NCBI GenBank assembly: GCA_003162395.1 | Contig: PMON01000004.1 | Span: 24,711-88,710 of the forward strand | DNA length: 64,000 bases | DNA from: Acidimicrobiaceae bacterium | GTDB lineage: Bacteria > Actinomycetota > Acidimicrobiia > Acidimicrobiales > RAAP-2 | Direction: 5' to 3' | In this document: one piece after another, positions 30,910-39,649 of the stretch | How positions within the stretch are numbered: position 1 is the stretch's first letter | Layout of the letters: each line of letters starts with the position of its first letter | The notes under the pieces: model-generated | What the model saw: the letters and a program-made list of their open reading frames with translations, nothing else | Database searches by the model: none | Told to the model about the DNA's origin: nothing | Translations under genes and position numbers: made by a program

Positions 30910-31682
30910 CCGAGGCAGCACCCGACGCGGGGGCAGCGGAGCTCCGACCGGCCTACTACGCCCACCCACGATTCCTCCGCCGACGCTCGGTCCGGGACTG
31001 GTGGACGCTGCTGCATCCTCCCTACACCCTGTGGCACCTCGCCTACGTCGTGATCGGCGGGTGTCTCGTTGGGCCCGTCCGGGTCTCACGCCTCATCGCG
31101 TCGGTCCTCGCGTTCTTCCTCGCGGTGGGGATCGCCGCGCACGCGCTGGACGAGCTGCACGGTCGCCCGCTGCGGACGTCGATCCCGGACTGGGCGCTCG
31201 TCGTCGCAGCGGTGGGCGGGCTCGCGGGCGCGGTCGCCCTCGGGATCGTCGGCGTCGTCCAGGTCGGCTGGGTCCTCGCGATCTTCATCGTCGTCGGCCT
31301 CGTGCTGGCGCTCTCGTACAACCTGGAGCTCTTCGGCGCGCGCCTCCACACCGACGCCATGTTCGCGGCGAGCTGGGGGGCGTTCCCGGTCCTCACCGGC
31401 TACGCCGCGCAGCACGACACGATCAGCGTCCCCGCGCTGTGCGCGGGCGTGTTCGCCTACTTCTTCGCGAGCGCCCAGCGTCGGCTCTCGACCCCCGCGA
31501 GGCGCCTGCGGCGTCGCACGAACTCGGTGTCAGGGCGGATCGTGGCGCTCGACGGCTCGGCGTCCGAGCTCACGGCCGCGTCGATCCTCGCTCCCTTGGA
31601 GGGCGCGCTCGCCGCGCTCAGCTGGTCGGTCGTGGCACTCGCGGTCGCGCTCGCGCTGGCCCAGCTGCACCCATGGCGATGA
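30906..31682 (+). CDS. UbiA-like integral membrane protein
   Basis: The 258-residue protein has about seven hydrophobic segments. The loop AHALDELHGRPLRTSIPD resembles the first Asp-rich motif of UbiA prenyltransferases (NDxxDxxxD followed by RPL), but with fewer acidic residues. A second region LSYNLELFGARLHTDAMFA may correspond to the second motif. It is therefore a divergent UbiA relative rather than a standard MenA. Its GTGA coupling to a UbiE-like methyltransferase suggests one pathway acting on a prenylated or lipid-soluble substrate (inference). The last 20 bp lie in the segment that is repeated at 33.16 kb. Confidence 0.6.
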   Translation: MTEAAPDAGAAELRPAYYAHPRFLRRRSVRDWWTLLHPPYTLWHLAYVVIGGCLVGPVRVSRLIASVLAFFLAVGIAAHALDELHGRPLRTSIPDWALVVAAVGGLAGAVALGIVGVVQVGWVLAIFIVVGLVLALSYNLELFGARLHTDAMFAASWGAFPVLTGYAAQHDTISVPALCAGVFAYFFASAQRRLSTPARRLRRRTNSVSGRIVALDGSASELTAASILAPLEGALAALSWSVVALAVALALAQLHPWR

Positions 31683-31710
31683 ACGCCGGCGGCCCGGCGC
31701 GCCGTGCCGC

Positions 31711-32703
31711 CTAGAGGCTCGGCTTGAGGGCGGTGCCGAGCACCGTGCTGAGCCACAGCGCGTACGTCTCGGTGATGTGCCCAGTCGAGTAGTAGACGAT
31801 GCGGTAGCCGCCCGACGATTCCCCGATGATCGGGCTGCATGACACGGGCTTCGTCGCCGAGGAGCACAGCCAGGGGAGCACGTTGACATAGCGCGCCCTT
31901 TCAGCCTTCGCCGCAGTCGACTCGGCCGCACGCTGCGCCTGCAGGGCCGGGGTGTCGCTGATGGTGCACGTCTGGATCGAAGACGGGTTTGCGGCCAGGC
32001 ACTGGGGAGGGACCGCGTCGCTCTGCGACGCGGTGCTCACGGTGTTCCCGATGACGAGCTTGTGCATCCGCTTGGAGTGCAGCGACTTGAGGGTCGTCTC
32101 GAGCCCCGCACGCCACTGGGCGGGCGTGATCGTGTTGTACGCGCCAGCTGCGTTCGCTGCCTGGCTGTTGAAGTTCTCCGAGATGATGACCAGCGAGGGG
32201 TTGAGCTTGTTGATCGCCACGATCATGTGCTTCCGGAACACGTTGCACGACGTGTAGGGCGCCTTGTCCACCGGGTTCCAGACCGAGACGTCGGCCGGGG
32301 GGCACGCGTACTGGAGCAGTGCGACCAGCTTCCAGTGGTCAGCCTTCGCGATCGCGTTCACCGCGGGGAACCACATGAAGGCGTGGGAGTCCCCCCAGAT
32401 CACCATGGTCTTCGATCCCGCCTTGTCGCCGAAGACGCACTTCGAGGGATTGAGTGTCTCGCCCGTCGTGTTGCACGCAGCGAGCGTCGGCGTCCCGAGG
32501 GTCGCGATGTCCTTCGTGGCATTGGCGAGCGACGGGCTCAGATTCGACGGCAGCGTGGTGATCGACAGCGAGCTCGCGACCTCAGCGGCAACCTTTGAGG
32601 CGCTTCCGGGCCCGGACGAGGCGCCCGACTCGCTGATGCCGAGCAGGACGACGGTGCCGGTGAGCAGCGTCGCCGCCAGCGTTCGCGCGATTCTGACATC
32701 CAT
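31711..32703 (-). CDS. Exported SGNH-domain protein 1
   Basis: The 330-residue protein has a signal peptide (RIARTLAATLLTGTVVLLGI). Its C-terminal SGNH domain is like the one attached to OafA-type acyltransferases: VIWGDSHAFMWFPAVNAIAK with S106, GETLNPSKCVFGD before it, and YYSTGHITETYA near the end. In the usual triad an Asp stands three residues before the His (DxxH); here the sequence is STGH, so the Asp is absent. It may be a stand-alone O-acyl transferase/esterase or an inactive binding protein. The ATG start has GGAGAG upstream. It is a tandem paralogue of the gene at 33.2 kb. Confidence 0.8.
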   Translation of the reverse strand: MDVRIARTLAATLLTGTVVLLGISESGASSGPGSASKVAAEVASSLSITTLPSNLSPSLANATKDIATLGTPTLAACNTTGETLNPSKCVFGDKAGSKTMVIWGDSHAFMWFPAVNAIAKADHWKLVALLQYACPPADVSVWNPVDKAPYTSCNVFRKHMIVAINKLNPSLVIISENFNSQAANAAGAYNTITPAQWRAGLETTLKSLHSKRMHKLVIGNTVSTASQSDAVPPQCLAANPSSIQTCTISDTPALQAQRAAESTAAKAERARYVNVLPWLCSSATKPVSCSPIIGESSGGYRIVYYSTGHITETYALWLSTVLGTALKPSL

Positions 32704-32845
32704 TTTCGGGCTCTCTCCGCATCGGTGTGGTCGTCGAATCGTAGACCTGCAGTTGGGCAATCGCGAGGTCGCCGGCTACCCATCTTCTTTTGGCTCATCT
32801 GGGCGTGGATCTCACACCTCACTGAGTAGGCACACCAACGCACTT

Positions 32846-33012
32846 GCTCCTCGTCGACCTCGATGGACACGTTCGGCACGGGCAATGATGGCTCGCACTC
32901 GAATGTCTCGTCGACTCGGTCGCCGCTCACCCCACCAATGGCGGGTCCACGCGCCCGGCTCCCAGTGACGACCGACCGAACCTGACACACCCTGGGCATC
33001 ATCTCGATGTGG
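32846..33012 (+). pseudogene. 3' remnant of an IS1595-like zinc-ribbon gene
   Basis: This segment aligns with 35356-35591, the end of the intact zinc-ribbon gene. The translation SSSTSMDTFGTGN corresponds to SSSSSMGMRGAGN, and the end LGIISMW is identical. Between them about 70 bp are missing, and the final block is in another frame. The 5' two thirds, including the zinc ribbon and HTH, are absent: the sequence switches abruptly after the SGNH upstream region at about 32846. It is a clear decayed copy within the tandem duplication. Confidence 0.75.
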
Positions 33013-33104
33013 TGCGACCCACACGTAGCCGCACAACCCGTTGCTCCTCCCCCTGCGCCCCCGCGCACGAGCCGGCGCCGGCGCTGCGGGGCTCCTGTGG
33101 CCTA

Positions 33105-33141
33105 CGACGATCAGTGGCTCCTCCGGGGTCGGGGATCGTCG
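33105..33141 (+). repeat. Decayed hairpin downstream of zinc-ribbon remnant
   Basis: CGACGATC (33105-33112) pairs with GATCGTCG (33134-33141). The segment aligns almost gap-free with the intact 13-bp-stem hairpin at 35699-35728. The inner arms have decayed while the outer arms stay complementary. Confidence 0.55.
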
Positions 33142-33220
33142 CGCTGGCGGAGCGAGGCGCTCAGCTGCACCCGTGGCGACGATCGACGAGGGTGTGGTCT
33201 CGCCGCCGGGGCTGCGCCGC

Positions 33221-34210
33221 CTACAGGCTCGGCTTGAGCGCGGTGCCGAGCACCGTCTTGAGCCACAGCGCGTACGTCTCGGTGATGTGCCCGGTCGAGT
33301 AGTAGACGACCTTGTAGCCAGAGGAGTCACCGATGATGTCGCTGCACGACACGGGCTTCGTCGCCGTCGTACACGTCCAAGGCAATACGTTGATGTAGCG
33401 GGCGGACTCGGCCTTCGCGGCATTGGACTCCGCTGCCCGCTGGGCTTGCTGGGCCGCGGTGTCGCTGAACGTGCAGGTCTGGATCGAGGTGACGTTCGCC
33501 GCGAGGCACTGCACCGGGACGTCCAGACCAGGGTCCGTCGACAGCACCGTGGCGCCAATGACCAGCTTCCTCATCTTCTTCGAGTGCAGTTCCTTGAGGG
33601 TGGTCTTGAGAGCCGCCTGCCACTGTGCCGTCGTGATCGTGTTGCTGGCGCCCCCACCGGATGCGGCCATGCTCGAGAATGCCTCGGTCACGATCACGAG
33701 CGACGGATTCAGCTTGTTGATCGCAGCAATCATGTTCTTTCGAAAGGTGTCACACGCCTTGTACGGCGTCTTCGTGAACGGGTTCCACACAGAGACGTCA
33801 GCAACAGGACACCCGTACTCGATGAGCGCCACGAGCTTCCAATGCTCTGTCTTGGCGATCGCGTTGACCGCGGGGAACCACATGAATGCGTGGGAGTCCC
33901 CCCACAGCACCATGGTCTTGGATCCCCTCGTGTCCCCGAAGACGCACCTCGAAGGATTGAGCGTGACGCCGGTCGCATCGCACCGAGAGAGCGCCGGCGT
34001 CCCGACCGTCGCCACGTCCGTTGCAGCATTCCCCAGCGAGGGGCTCAGTTTTGCGGGAAGCGTCTTGATGGACAGCGACGCAGCAACGTCGGCAGCCACC
34101 TGAGCAGCATTCCCCGGCGAGGTCGAGGCCCCGGATGCGCTGATGCCGACGAGGGCCGCGGCGGTCGCAACCACGCAGGCCGCGAGCACTCGAACAAGCC
34201 TGACGTTCAT
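33221..34210 (-). CDS. Exported SGNH-domain protein 2
   Basis: The 329-residue paralogue of SGNH protein 1 is similar over its whole length: VLWGDSHAFMWFPAVNAIAK, KLVALIEYGCPVADVSVWNP, CDTFRKNMIAAINKLNPSLV, and VVYYSTGHITETYALWL at the end. It has a signal peptide (RLVRVLAACVVATAAALVGI). Like its partner it lacks the Asp of the usual DxxH motif. The ATG start has GAGGAGCACA upstream. Both paralogues keep their cysteines (TSIQTC/SSIQTC, WTC/WLC), fitting an exported disulfide-bonded protein. Confidence 0.8.
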   Translation of the reverse strand: MNVRLVRVLAACVVATAAALVGISASGASTSPGNAAQVAADVAASLSIKTLPAKLSPSLGNAATDVATVGTPALSRCDATGVTLNPSRCVFGDTRGSKTMVLWGDSHAFMWFPAVNAIAKTEHWKLVALIEYGCPVADVSVWNPFTKTPYKACDTFRKNMIAAINKLNPSLVIVTEAFSSMAASGGGASNTITTAQWQAALKTTLKELHSKKMRKLVIGATVLSTDPGLDVPVQCLAANVTSIQTCTFSDTAAQQAQRAAESNAAKAESARYINVLPWTCTTATKPVSCSDIIGDSSGYKVVYYSTGHITETYALWLKTVLGTALKPSL

Positions 34211-34751
34211 TGTGCTCCTCGGTCGTCGGATCTGTCGTCGGATCGTAGACCCGAAGTTGGGCAATCGCGATGTCGCGGGGAAGCGGCTCTCTCTGGCTCA
34301 TCTGGGCGCTGAGCACACACCTCACTGGAGGCGCACAACAACGCACTTGTGAATTGTCTTCTTGTTGCGTGGTTCGTGGCGGTGTGTGGAGTCAAGGCTG
34401 CGAATTTCTCACTCGTGACGTTGTGCTTGACGAACCGTGGTGACCGAGCGAGGCACGTGTACGGGATTGACCCCGTGCAGTGTCCGCGTCGGCACGCCCG
34501 TTTGTCGCACGGCCTCACGAGGTGCGTCCCCGACGACGGGGTCCTCTCGTGACGACGGCGTGCCCCCCGCCGCGTCATGAGAGGGCCCCCGAGGTCGCAC
34601 CCAGGGCCACCTGTCACCAGTGGCCCACCACCTCTTCTTCGCCGCGCACGTGCGCAGCGAGGCACCTCCAGCACTCGAGGCGCCCCCTCTCGTGCCGGAG
34701 CACGACCTTCACGGTCCGGCAAGTCGCCGTGCCCACAACCAGGGAGGAACG
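34211..34751. other. Intergenic region between SGNH gene 2 and the zinc-ribbon gene
   Basis: No convincing gene is present. The first 135 bp repeat the region upstream of SGNH gene 1. Further on lie a CCCCG-ACGA-CGGGG hairpin, the large hairpin at 34544-34583, a GGGCCAC/GTGGCCC inverted repeat at about 34604-34626, and the 13-bp word CCAGTGGCCCACC (34617-34629) that recurs at 35685-35697 on the other side of the zinc-ribbon gene. AGGGAGGAACG before 34752 is the ribosome binding site. Confidence 0.5.
34544..34583. repeat. Long imperfect hairpin upstream of the zinc-ribbon gene
   Basis: CTCTCGTGACGACGGCG pairs with CGCCGCGTCATGAGAG across a 7-nt loop, with one G-T pair and one bulged A. It could be a terminator, a regulatory structure or part of the element end; the sequence alone does not decide. 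Confidence 0.45.
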
Positions 34752-35594
34752 ATGACCAGCGACACCACCCACGACGTCTCGATGGAGGCGCCACTCACCG
34801 AGTTCGACCTCGCCGCACTCGATGAGCTGCTGCGTGGCGACGCCTTGCGCGCTTCGGGCGAGACGCGGTTCCCCGCGACCAGCGCAGTGCTGGCGAGGAT
34901 CGCAGAACGACTGCCGACGGAGGCTTCTGCCTACGAGCTGCTCGAGCACCTGCGCTGGCGCGGCTCGCCGATGTGCCCGCACTGCGGCGTCGTCGGCGCC
35001 CACGCGTACCTTCGGCCAGCGAACGGGCACAGCCGCACGACCAACCGCGGACGCCAGTCCGAGCGGCGGGTGTGGAAGTGCCGGTCGTGCAAGCGGCAGT
35101 TCTCGGTGATCACCGGGACGGTCATGCACGGCACGCATGTGCCCATCAGGACATGGATCCTCGTCGCCTTCGAGATCGCGTCCACGAATCGCGAGCTCAG
35201 CGACCGTGAGGTCGAACGGCGCTACGGCCTGAGCTCGAAGTCTGCCCACTTCCTGTTGCAGCGGATCCGCGACGACCTCTCACGTCCGTCGGAGGACTCG
35301 TTGTTCGCACGCGTCGTCGCCGGCGACCGCGAGGCCGTGAGCTCCTCGGTGGGCGGCTCCTCGTCCTCCTCGATGGGCATGCGAGGCGCGGGCAACCGTG
35401 GCGCACCGTCGCATGGCTCGTCGATCTCCAACGTCACGCCGATGCCGAACGGCGCGTCCATGCCGAACGGGGCGTCGATGGCGAACTCCAAGGCCCTGCA
35501 CCCCTCCAACGGCGCGCCCGTACGACCCGCGTCGAGCCGTGACGGCCGTCCGACCCTCCCCGATGCACCGCTCGGCATCATCTCGATGTGGTGA
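34752..35594 (+). CDS. IS1595-type zinc-ribbon/HTH protein lacking the transposase catalytic domain
   Basis: The 280-residue protein matches the N-terminal part of IS1595-family transposases. It has a zinc ribbon (LRWRGSPMCPHCGVVGAHAY with CRSCKRQFSV, Cys pairs C-x2-C and C-x2-C), VITGTVMHGTHVPIRTWILV, and the helix-turn-helix LSDREVERRYGLSSKSAHFL with LLQRIRDDL. In IS1595 proteins a DDE domain (VEVDETYxGG) follows. Here it is replaced by a low-complexity Ser/Asn/Gly-rich tail with an 18-bp tandem repeat (MPNGAS twice, 35442-35477). It cannot transpose by itself and may be a domesticated DNA-binding protein. The ATG start has AGGGAGGAACG. A remnant of a second copy lies at 32.8 kb. Confidence 0.75.
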   Translation: MTSDTTHDVSMEAPLTEFDLAALDELLRGDALRASGETRFPATSAVLARIAERLPTEASAYELLEHLRWRGSPMCPHCGVVGAHAYLRPANGHSRTTNRGRQSERRVWKCRSCKRQFSVITGTVMHGTHVPIRTWILVAFEIASTNRELSDREVERRYGLSSKSAHFLLQRIRDDLSRPSEDSLFARVVAGDREAVSSSVGGSSSSSMGMRGAGNRGAPSHGSSISNVTPMPNGASMPNGASMANSKALHPSNGAPVRPASSRDGRPTLPDAPLGIISMW

Positions 35595-35967
35595 CGACTC
35601 GGACATAGCCGCACGCCGACGGCGGCTCGCGCGTCGCCCCCCCTGCGACTCCCGCGCGCGAACCGCCGTCGGTGCTGCTGGGCCCCAGTGGCCCACCGCG
35701 ACCCGTGGCCCTTTGGGGCCACGGGTCGTCGCGTGTGGTCGGCTCTGCTGAGCTCAACCGAGCTCGACGACGCCCGGCCCGAGGGCGGCGGGGCCAAGCT
35801 CGAGGCGTCTCGCACCAGCAGCGCGGAACGGGCGGTCGAATGGCGGCGACCTTCGTCGACAACGATCCGCGCCCGCGGTCACGTGCGGGGTATCCGCGCT
35901 TGGCTGTCGTCCCACTCTGCGGCCATCGCTGGGCGACGCCCAACATGGCGCCGACCTGCGAGGCCGG
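35595..35967. other. Intergenic region downstream of the zinc-ribbon gene
   Basis: No gene is supported. The first 130 bp match the flank of the decayed copy at 33.0-33.14 kb, including the hairpin at 35699-35728. After that the sequence up to the stop of the S8-type gene at 35968 shows no recognisable feature. Confidence 0.5.
35699..35728 (+). terminator. 13-bp perfect hairpin after the zinc-ribbon gene
   Basis: CGACCCGTGGCCC-TTTG-GGGCCACGGGTCG forms a perfect 13-bp stem with a 4-nt loop about 105 bp after the stop codon. No U-tract follows. It is probably a factor-assisted or GC-type terminator, possibly also an element end, since a decayed version ends copy A. Confidence 0.55.
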
Positions 35968-38900
35968 CTACATGACCTTGTAGCTGAACGTCAGTGACGC
36001 GAGCTCGTCGCCGCCCGTGTCCTCGAGTCCGATGAGCTCGTTCGCCTGGAAGACGTCATCGACGTTGATGACGCCGGTGACCGTCGAGCCCACTCGTGCC
36101 GTCGGCTTGATCCTGACCACGATCGTGACGGCGTGCCCCGGCAGGACGAAGACCGGCTTGAAGGTCTTCGTGAGCAAGTTGTCGGCGCTCCAGAGGTCGC
36201 CGGTCGACGGCGTCGCGGTCAGGTCAAAGGCCCTCGTGACCGCGTGGAACGACGCGTTCGCCGTCACCGCCGGCGCGCCCGACGCGGTGTACGGCCCGAT
36301 CTCGCTCGGGTTGAGGTACCACAGGCCAGGTGCAACCTCGCCCGGCGTCGAGAATCGGAGGCTGGCGGCGTCGCCGCTCTGGTGCACCGTGACGCCAGGC
36401 GCGGCGAGGGCTGGTGTGAGGTCAGGGTCCCCCGTGAACGGGCCGGTGTCGAACGTCACCGGCGCGCTCCCCGTCAGGCTCGCGACGACCTCGCTCGTGT
36501 CCGTCGGGACCTCATAGAACGGGAAGCTGCCGCCAGGCGGCAGGGGTAGCGACATGCCCTGGTCGCTCCCGTTCCCGTCTGCGAGCCGGACCGTGGACAG
36601 GTGCGTCAGCCGCGGGTCGAGGAAGAACGCCTCGGGCGACGGACTCGTGTTCCGCACGGTCACTTTGAACGCGTAGGTCCGCAACCGGTGCAGCTTCGTC
36701 CTGGCAGCAGACGGGAGGTTCGACACGACGTCGACGTGGTTGAAACGGACCTGTCCTTGGAAGGGCTCGGCGAGCTCGGAGCCCGACACCGGCTGCAGCC
36801 AGTCGAGCACGAGTGTCCAGGTGCCGGCCTGGGGGGCGTCCTTGTAGACGTTGACGTGCCCCGTCGTGACCAGCGTGCCCACGCGGTCGAGCGTCACGCT
36901 CGACGACGAGGCGACAGCCTGGCCCTCGGGATCGAGGAGGAAGGCCGCGACTCCGTCGTTCTCGTCGGCGAACGACGTGCTGACGTCGAGGTCGCGGAGT
37001 CCCCTCGGGACCTTGAACTCGTAGGTGTTCGTCTGGGCCGGGTTGCCCCGCCCGTTGCCCCCGGTCAGCACCCCGGTGAACCTGCCGCCGTTCGCACCGA
37101 TGCCCACGAGCGTCCGCACCGTCACGGGGATCGTGTTCACCGGCCCGCTCGTCGTGCTCAGGACGATCGACTGCGCGGTGTCGCCCGAGATGCTCGACGC
37201 GCCCGGCGTGAAGGTCGACGTCGAGGTGTGCCCGGCGGGGATCGACAACATCGAAGGCGAGATCTTGCCGGCAGGCGCGAACTCGGACTCGGAGGCAGCC
37301 CACTGGATGGTGCCGCTCGTGCCCGTGCCACTCGCCCCGTTCTGCACCGTGAAGAAGACGGCGGTCCAGGCTCCGGCGGTCGGGTTCGCGACCTGGATGT
37401 TGGCGTAATCAGCGAGTCCTTGCGGTAAGGAGTAGCCCGCGTAGGCGCCCGTCGGGTCGAACAGCGCCACGTGCAGCAGCGAGCTCTGGCCGGTGTAGGG
37501 GTAGTCGGCCGAGAAGTTGAGCCGAGACGGGCCCGTCGTCGTCGGCACCGTGAAGGCCTCTTCTTGGTAGACCTCGGTGACGCCGCTCCAGATCGCGAAC
37601 GTGTTCGCCGTCGACGGCCCGCACGAGCTCGTCGTGGCCGAGGGGTTCAAGCAGAACGATCCCGACTGCGTCGCGACGTGCTTCGTCAGCGCCCTCGTGG
37701 AGAGCTGCACGTCGACTGCGGCGTTGCCGGTGTTGGTTACGTGGATCGTCCGAGATGCGCTGACGCCCGGGTTCTGGGTGAGGTCGATCTGGCTCGGACC
37801 GATGAGCAGCCCGCCCTGGGGCGTGCCCGACGTGCCCGTGATCGACGCGGCCTCCTTGACGGCGGCCAGCACGTTGAGCAGCCCGGCGCCCTGCTGTTCT
37901 GCCGGCGCGCTGACGTCGACCGCGGTGCTCACGAGGATCTGCTTCACGAGCGCCGGGGTCGGGTCGGTGCCCCCGTGCGTCGTGGCGTAGGCCTGGATCA
38001 CGTCGGCGGCAGCGCCGGAGGTGAGCGGAGCCGACTCGCTCGTCCCGCCCGACAGCTGGATCGACGAGGCCGCGGGCGTGGACTGGTCGTTCGTGCACTC
38101 CGTGAACAGCGCGACGTTCGCGTCGCACAGGGTCCAGTTGAGGTCGCCCGGGGCCACGAGGTCGACCGTCGTCGCGCCGCTCTGTGCGAACCCGCCGGAG
38201 GACAGGCCCGAGATGTTGTTGTCGAGCCAGGTCCCGCTCCCTGCGGTGGGCGTCGTGGCGTTGCTGCCGCCGTAGGTGTCCTGCAGGTAGCCGCGGAACG
38301 TCGTCGAGGCGCCCACACTGATCAGGTTGGGGTCCGTCGCAGGTGAGCCCAGCGTGCTGGTGATGCCGGCGTCACCTGAGCTCACGACCACCGTGACGCC
38401 TGCGGCAACTGCGTCGTCGTCGGCGATGCGCGTCGCGTCAAGGGCGGTGTCGGGGAAGTTGTTCGACCCGAACGACTCGTTGAGGACCTTGACACCGTGA
38501 CCGACGGCGTAGTCGATCGCCTGGACGAAGTTGGACTCCGTCGTGGCGTGGTCGGTTGAGAAGACGTCGAGGCCGAGGACGCTGGCGCCAGGCGCGGCGC
38601 CCGTGATCCTGATGTCGCACGGCGAGGACAAGGGGTGCGACGCGTTCACGTAGGTGTCCAGGTTGTACGTCATGTTGCCTTGCGCCCCGATCGACCCGGA
38701 GTCGAGGAACGCCTCGCCGCCCCCGGTCGGCGTGCCCGACGGGTCGCCCGTGAAGTTCTCCTGGGTCAGCATCGCCGACCCTGTCGGCGAGCCCGCGGAC
38801 GCGTAGAGGGCATTGCGCTGGAAGTCGAGGTTCGCGGGGTCGACGCCGTCGGCGATGTAGGCGACCGTCACCCCGGCCCCGTCGTCGCCAATGGCAGCCG

Positions 38901-39480
38901 CGGCTGGGGCGTTGATGGTGTTGATCGCCTCTGGGTCGGCCTCGGGAGACGCGGCGGTGCCGCAGATGGACGGCGGCACCGCAGGGACCTTCGGGATGGC
39001 GCCTGCTCGCGCGGTCGGCGTCACGCCGGCGGCTGCCCGCGGCAGGGTGTTCGTCGCGAGCTGCGGCATCGGATAGGGGATGGCCGCGTCGGGGACGACG
39101 AGACGGACCGGCGGCAGCGAGCCCAGCGCGGTTCGCTGTGCCGCGGTCACGTCCGCGACGACGTACGGGATCGACCTCCCCGACGTGACCTCGGCGGCGC
39201 CGGTGGACCGCAGCATCGAGACGAGCGGGGACTCTTCGCGCTGGAGGTCCGTCGCGCGAGTCCGTGAGCGCGCGCCAAGGCCCGACGCGTCGTCACGGAG
39301 CAGGACGATCACCCTGCTCATCGGGCCACTCGTCCTCGGCAGGGCGACGGCGCTGCTGCGACCCGCGCTCGCGGCGATCGGAGCGACGGCGCCTGCGGCG
39401 AGTGTCGGTATGGCGATGGCGAGCCCCACGCCTAGCACGAGTCCCTTGGCAATGATCGAACGCAGTCGGGTCCTTCGCAT
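35968..39480 (-). CDS. Large exported S8-like (subtilase-fold) protein, His motif not found
   Basis: The 1170-residue protein has a signal peptide (LRSIIAKGLVLGVGLAIAIP, then TLAAGA), a propeptide-like region, and a subtilase-fold domain at about 200-520: TVAYIADGVD with D211, GAAPGASVLGLDVF, VKVLNESFGS with the oxyanion Asn, and GGTSESAPLTSG with S481. The usual HGTxVA block before GAAPGA is replaced by GSIGAQGNMTYNL, so the catalytic His seems missing. A long C-terminal region contains beta-sandwich repeats (VSASRTIHVTNTGNAAVDVQ) suited to the cell surface. It may be an atypical peptidase subgroup or a non-catalytic binding protein. The ATG start has GGAGGATC upstream. Confidence 0.8.
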   Translation of the reverse strand: MRRTRLRSIIAKGLVLGVGLAIAIPTLAAGAVAPIAASAGRSSAVALPRTSGPMSRVIVLLRDDASGLGARSRTRATDLQREESPLVSMLRSTGAAEVTSGRSIPYVVADVTAAQRTALGSLPPVRLVVPDAAIPYPMPQLATNTLPRAAAGVTPTARAGAIPKVPAVPPSICGTAASPEADPEAINTINAPAAAAIGDDGAGVTVAYIADGVDPANLDFQRNALYASAGSPTGSAMLTQENFTGDPSGTPTGGGEAFLDSGSIGAQGNMTYNLDTYVNASHPLSSPCDIRITGAAPGASVLGLDVFSTDHATTESNFVQAIDYAVGHGVKVLNESFGSNNFPDTALDATRIADDDAVAAGVTVVVSSGDAGITSTLGSPATDPNLISVGASTTFRGYLQDTYGGSNATTPTAGSGTWLDNNISGLSSGGFAQSGATTVDLVAPGDLNWTLCDANVALFTECTNDQSTPAASSIQLSGGTSESAPLTSGAAADVIQAYATTHGGTDPTPALVKQILVSTAVDVSAPAEQQGAGLLNVLAAVKEAASITGTSGTPQGGLLIGPSQIDLTQNPGVSASRTIHVTNTGNAAVDVQLSTRALTKHVATQSGSFCLNPSATTSSCGPSTANTFAIWSGVTEVYQEEAFTVPTTTGPSRLNFSADYPYTGQSSLLHVALFDPTGAYAGYSLPQGLADYANIQVANPTAGAWTAVFFTVQNGASGTGTSGTIQWAASESEFAPAGKISPSMLSIPAGHTSTSTFTPGASSISGDTAQSIVLSTTSGPVNTIPVTVRTLVGIGANGGRFTGVLTGGNGRGNPAQTNTYEFKVPRGLRDLDVSTSFADENDGVAAFLLDPEGQAVASSSSVTLDRVGTLVTTGHVNVYKDAPQAGTWTLVLDWLQPVSGSELAEPFQGQVRFNHVDVVSNLPSAARTKLHRLRTYAFKVTVRNTSPSPEAFFLDPRLTHLSTVRLADGNGSDQGMSLPLPPGGSFPFYEVPTDTSEVVASLTGSAPVTFDTGPFTGDPDLTPALAAPGVTVHQSGDAASLRFSTPGEVAPGLWYLNPSEIGPYTASGAPAVTANASFHAVTRAFDLTATPSTGDLWSADNLLTKTFKPVFVLPGHAVTIVVRIKPTARVGSTVTGVINVDDVFQANELIGLEDTGGDELASLTFSYKVM

Positions 39481-39649
39481 GCAAGATCCTCCGAGGCTGG
39501 TGACGTCTCGTCGAGTCACGTTGGTCAGCCAAAACATTGGCACGGCACCGACCAGCGACGTGACATACGCGTCCTTCGACCCGTCCCGGCCATGGTGAAG
39601 ACGTGCCCGAGCGGTCCCGACTGCCCGGATGTCCGACAACCATCGGCGA

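Follow-up and report, generated by a model that had tools for sequence, protein, structure and literature searches.

A DDE-less IS1595-type gene shared by two species of an Acidimicrobiaceae genus, a probable case of transposase exaptation

What becomes of a transposase gene that keeps its DNA-binding half and loses its catalytic half: does it decay, or can the host retain it for another purpose? This question is raised by an open reading frame in the window, by which we mean the whole 64,000-nucleotide stretch analyzed here (G000:C61:24711-88710), taken from an Acidimicrobiaceae genome of 2.65 Mb that is 86.7% complete. The frame lies on the forward strand at 34752-35594 and encodes 280 amino acids; its ATG at 34752, its stop codon at 35592-35594 and its reading frame were confirmed. 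A sequence-only reading had described it as a possible domesticated transposase, and this description is supported by the absence of a DDE domain, the presence of an ortholog and the purifying selection on its DNA-binding half.

All parts of the gene described below lie on the forward strand. The zinc ribbon (aa 55-116, 34914-35099) matched the Pfam family PF12760 (Zn_ribbon_IS1595) with an E-value of 3.6e-10 and 40.1 bits, against a cut-off of 25.4, and retains all four of its cysteines in two CxxC motifs (residues 75 and 78, and 110 and 113). It is followed by a helix-turn-helix (HTH) region (aa 132-176, 35145-35279), with modelled helices at residues 132-145, 151-158 and 162-176, which can be aligned residue for residue with 28 intact IS1595 transposases. 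A ribosome binding site, GGGAGG, is found at 34742-34747, a few bases 5' of the ATG. The zinc ribbon and HTH are thus intact and preceded by a good ribosome binding site, as the sequence-only reading had stated. IS1595 transposases combine PF12760, an HTH and the DDE domain PF12762 (NF033547), and the window protein resembles them in its zinc ribbon and HTH, its identity to intact members reaching 46-53% across approximately aa 47-190. Unlike them, it lacks the DDE domain, has altered HTH positions, and carries an extra N-terminus of 46 amino acids (34752-34889), with a predicted helix at residues 17-33, that cannot be aligned with intact IS1595 transposases. It also ends in a low-complexity tail rich in Ser, Asn and Gly (aa 191-280, 35322-35591). 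The tail is predicted to be disordered and contains an 18-bp tandem repeat (35442-35486; 2.5 copies, 88% matches) encoding PNGASM-PNGASM. The NF033547 score of the protein was 26, against a cut-off of 75. The AlphaFold model had a mean pLDDT of 53 (low confidence), with values of 70-88 in the HTH and about 31 in the unstructured tail, and a Foldseek search with this model gave no significant fold match.

The likeness to transposases stops just inside the DDE domain, where their 'VVADETYIGG', which includes the first catalytic Asp, corresponds to 'VVAGDREAVSSSVGG' in the window gene. According to the alignment, a vestige of the first DDE strand (FARVVAGDREAVSSSVGG, 35307-35357) occupies the place of this Asp. 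We found no DDE sequence in the six frames of 31600-36200 with a full-sensitivity profile (best domain E-value of 1.4), no PF12762 in the protein with Pfam, and no PF12762 in either genome of the genus; the domain was found in nine of 10 other relatives tested. Thus, neither the nearby frames nor the rest of the assembled genome yielded a DDE domain. The sequence-only reading had held that the DDE nuclease is replaced by a Ser/Asn/Gly-rich tail with an 18-bp repeat, and this is correct; the catalytic domain in a nearby frame that it had named as counter-evidence did not turn up. With the catalytic domain gone and one copy of the gene present, mobility has been lost. Given that the genus is represented by only two genomes, both of them incomplete metagenome-assembled genomes (86.7% and about 64% complete), the assemblies may simply lack a partner transposase.

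The gene occurs in both genomes of the genus. The second genome, and the only other species of the genus compared, is the Acidimicrobiaceae MAG palsa_608 (PLCI01000060.1, locus L036; about 64% complete), hereafter G001. Its ortholog, which answers the earlier call for homologues of the same architecture, likewise lacks a DDE domain and is 87% identical over the full length, including the end of the tail ('..MW'). It has a matching ATG and a matching ribosome binding site, and the N-terminal extension is kept with five amino-acid changes in 46 positions. Synteny around the two genes extends over about 27 kb; within it, the immediate neighbours differ while the gene itself persists. Over aa 47-190 (144 codons covering the zinc ribbon and HTH), there are 39 base differences and two amino-acid differences (dN 0.006, dS 0.438, dN/dS about 0.014). 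When the same substitutions were placed at random in a neutral simulation of 20,000 runs, the mean was 28 amino-acid changes and the minimum was 19. The DNA-binding half is thus under very strong purifying selection. The tail evolves fast, with a dN/dS of about 0.41 and indels in whole codons, which suggests weak constraint with the frame kept. The whole genes of the syntenic neighbours have dN/dS values of 0.07 to 0.42 (excluding one frame that is probably spurious), and setting 0.014 against these compares a domain with whole genes; the whole window gene, including its fast tail, has an unremarkable value of about 0.19. The dS of most syntenic genes is 0.26-0.85, so that of the window gene is ordinary for the region. 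Because the neighbours have similar dS values and dN/dS of 0.07 to 0.42, the freezing can be attributed neither to a recent transfer nor to a cold spot of mutation, and dS values of 0.3-0.5 indicate that the two genomes are not near-clonal. Selection of this kind is evidence of function, not of transcriptional regulation.

We therefore consider it likely that the gene derives from an IS1595 transposase by exaptation (domestication) and is kept as a stand-alone DNA-binding protein, most likely as a regulator similar to InsA. InsA of IS1 is a zinc-finger/HTH protein without a DDE half that has its binding domain in common with the transposase and acts as a repressor (PMC12428005). By analogy, it would be the closest working model for the window protein. 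However, the gene for InsA lies within a mobile element that produces its full transposase by frameshifting, whereas the window gene belongs to a different family and has no element around it, no DDE half and no recognised ends. In the course of events that we propose, the DDE domain would have been lost from the end of its first strand onward before the two species of the genus diverged, and the zinc ribbon and HTH would have been retained as a stand-alone protein binding DNA sequence-specifically. Such a regulator would bind operator DNA and repress or modulate transcription, with targets that perhaps include its own conserved upstream region, and the disordered, fast-evolving tail may serve as a linker or as a segment for interactions. 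The sequence comparisons give good support to exaptation as a DNA-binding protein; we infer DNA binding, transcriptional regulation, its direction and its targets for the window protein itself.

The upstream region is conserved at 89% between the window and G001 (34340-34598), compared with about 80% for neighbouring coding DNA, and its folding is far above that of shuffled sequence (z of -6.5 in the window and -4.2 in G001). It includes a long hairpin at 34412-34521 and a second hairpin with a 22-bp stem at 34538-34589, which is identical in G001. Another hairpin follows the stop codon at 35611-35678; it is terminator-like but without a T run, and a similar inverted repeat is present in G001. 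The hairpins noted around the gene in the sequence-only reading are therefore real and strong, but they and their flanking region are single-copy in both genomes, which rules them out as repeated ends of a mobile element. Among the pairs of the long hairpin that vary between the two species, six hold as G-U and five are broken, with no two-sided change, and two sequences of this kind cannot prove a structured RNA. All Rfam matches of the hairpins were far below the curated cut-offs, and no sigma-70-type promoter-like site was found. It is possible that 34340-34600 forms a structured leader RNA or an operator array.

This region separates the gene from a divergent SGNH-domain protein (PF19040; 33221-34264, reverse strand), which together with another PF19040 protein at 31711-32760 (also reverse strand) forms a tandem pair; the position next to SGNH genes had thus been read correctly. 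As a sub-case of exaptation, the protein could be a local regulator of these divergent SGNH genes, a proposal that draws on the divergent orientation, on the conservation of the intergenic region, which in both species contains strong hairpins, and on the occurrence of the SGNH pair in both. We regard it as doubtful, since the argument is one of adjacency, the immediate neighbours differ between the two species, the search for a sigma-70-type promoter-like site found none, and the G-U-tolerated changes in the hairpin are equally compatible with an RNA leader and with an operator. Furthermore, G001 has a 408-aa ORF (L036:4778-6001) between the hairpins and the gene, overlapping the start codon of the gene (ATGA), and the leader may serve that ORF. 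In the window, the ends alone of this ORF are recognisable, as a 91-aa ORF at 34480-34755. The 408-aa ORF had no Pfam match, and a CAP-family identity suggested by eye was dropped for this reason. On the other side of the gene, the window encodes a 1223-aa subtilase-family peptidase (PF00082, S8; 35968-39639) that is absent from the G001 locus, apparently a lineage-specific gain or loss.

We also conducted profile and homologue searches against 172 genomes of the family, 397 genomes drawn from the order and 395 drawn from the class. The searches showed no other gene of this design; instead, they returned intact IS1595 transposases and frameshifted wrecks. Matches were present in 47 of the 172 family genomes, the strong ones being intact transposases of 320-340 aa or frameshifted copies, and the class-wide profile search found no further member. 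Within the genomes searched, the architecture thus appears limited to a single genus, of which two species were compared. Five candidate loci (L010, L012, L070, L074 and L077) were rejected as DDE-less genes because a DDE half lies nearby in a shifted frame; L069 (in G338) and L013 lack a DDE domain, yet they are single finds that match the DNA-binding half alone. Another genome, G017, encodes a DDE-less IS1595 zinc-ribbon protein (L034:4468-5280) with a different tail, which also matches the DNA-binding half alone. A tyrosine-recombinase-like ORF (L034:2752-3972) lies about 0.5 kb away from this gene, which appears to be an independent DDE-less case in one genome. Viral contigs gave no matches and phages one weak match, and all of the plasmid matches listed are annotated as IS1595 transposases, none spanning 80% of the query. 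We looked for terminal inverted repeats around related elements as a clue to the operator and found no consistent, usable ends. Intact IS1595 loci of the family (L040:3320-3386, L006:3103-3166, L043:3289-3352 and others) share a block of 60-110 bp that is 84-94% identical, located 600-900 bp downstream of the transposase gene; it has no tRNA or Rfam match and is apparently the start of a passenger ORF. A tRNA-Pro(TGG) gene lies close to two intact transposase loci of the family (L008:2498-2571 and L028:2505-2578).

Phylogenetically, the genes of the window and G001 group in a separate clade with a stem length of 1.1 and almost no change between the tips; by path length, the closest sequences in the tree are intact transposases that belong to other families of the order. 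A long stem that carries two nearly identical tips suggests a period of change followed by freezing. Both genes have KNG changed to NRE and AW changed to AH at near-invariant transposase positions of the HTH, and thus the protein may no longer recognise the ancestral transposon ends. This bears on the possibility of a trans-acting transposition inhibitor, in which the DDE-less protein occupies IS1595 ends, blocks promoter and movement, and so shields the host, as InsA does for IS1. InsA, a repressor of IS1 transcription that also competes with the transposase for the ends (PMC12428005), has the same domain content, intact IS1595 relatives are present in other genera of the family, and neither of the two genomes of the genus has an intact IS1595. 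However, both genomes then lack a resident element that the protein could silence, and absence from two genomes is not significant, given that most family genomes also lack close intact elements. The divergence of the HTH residues from those of intact transposases mildly disfavours a pure inhibitor, which we judge to be unlikely.

Since selection signals function without saying which, the protein might also have a non-regulatory DNA-binding role, for example as a nucleoid-associated protein or an accessory protein of replication or repair. Its N-terminal extension and tail are, to our knowledge, unlike those of known bacterial regulators. Nothing specific speaks for such a role, and we think it quite improbable.

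A frame-broken remnant copy, consisting of the tail, stop region and 3' flank, lies at 32846-33182 on the forward strand between the two SGNH genes. Its parts at 32846-32917 and 32922-33182 match 35356-35428 and 35493-35770 with 71-76% identity (E-values of 1e-8 and 2e-28). On its 5' side, 32761-32845 matches 34265-34349 and then jumps directly to the remnant, indicating that about 1 kb with the start, zinc ribbon and HTH is missing. The sequence-only reading had used this copy to argue that the truncation is old. The tail is indeed present in the remnant, and the truncation thus appears to have preceded the duplication. However, the remnant shows 82% identity to the window gene and 77% to its G001 counterpart, so the duplication probably followed the divergence of the two species, which weakens the dating; it is the G001 ortholog, not the remnant, that dates the truncation further back. 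The tandem SGNH genes look older than the remnant duplication and partly converted. Their similarity between species is crossed (31711-34264 and the G001 counterparts), the first G001 copy being nearest to the second window copy, and the 5' parts of the G001 genes are 89% alike, a pattern suggestive of gene conversion or reshuffling. As for an ordinary pseudogene, a randomly truncated transposase still open by chance, such wrecks are common in relatives (the five frameshifted or truncated loci above) and a truncated copy adjoins the gene, but the dN/dS of 0.014 in the DNA-binding half across two species, the synteny, the whole-codon tail indels and the neutral simulation reject random truncation, and the neighbouring true pseudogene copy is frame-broken, so this explanation is extremely improbable.

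In eukaryotes, it is well documented that DDE transposases can turn into transcription factors. Recent cases of bacterial regulators derived from the DNA-binding half of a DDE transposase are rarely described, and our limited search of the open-access literature found none for IS1595. The TldR proteins are TnpB-derived, RNA-guided transcription factors (PMC13418256) and resemble the role proposed here in leading from a transposon protein to a transcription factor; however, they are RNA-guided and of the IS605 lineage, whereas the window gene would encode a zinc-ribbon/HTH protein as the reader. SfsB and Ner are transcription factors derived from mobile genetic elements (PMC8987985) and share with our proposal the recruitment of a host regulator from a mobile-element DNA-binding protein. 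The HTH examples in that review are phage and antitoxin regulators, not DDE transposases, and IS1595 is unmentioned (PMC8987985).

The gene would accordingly be a case of a known category, the exapted transposase, and not a new category. We put at about even the chance that it is a new genus-specific regulator in which an N-terminal helix and a disordered tail flank a bare IS1595 DNA-binding half, one that may work together with the conserved hairpin-rich region upstream, and hence a recent, traceable conversion of a transposase into a transcription factor. Given that intact relatives in sister genera, a truncated form fixed in both species of the genus and an adjacent dead duplicate coexist, it is possible to reconstruct the order of events, namely the loss of catalysis, the change of the recognition region and the freezing, and any shift in DNA specificity would be measurable against the surviving intact relatives.
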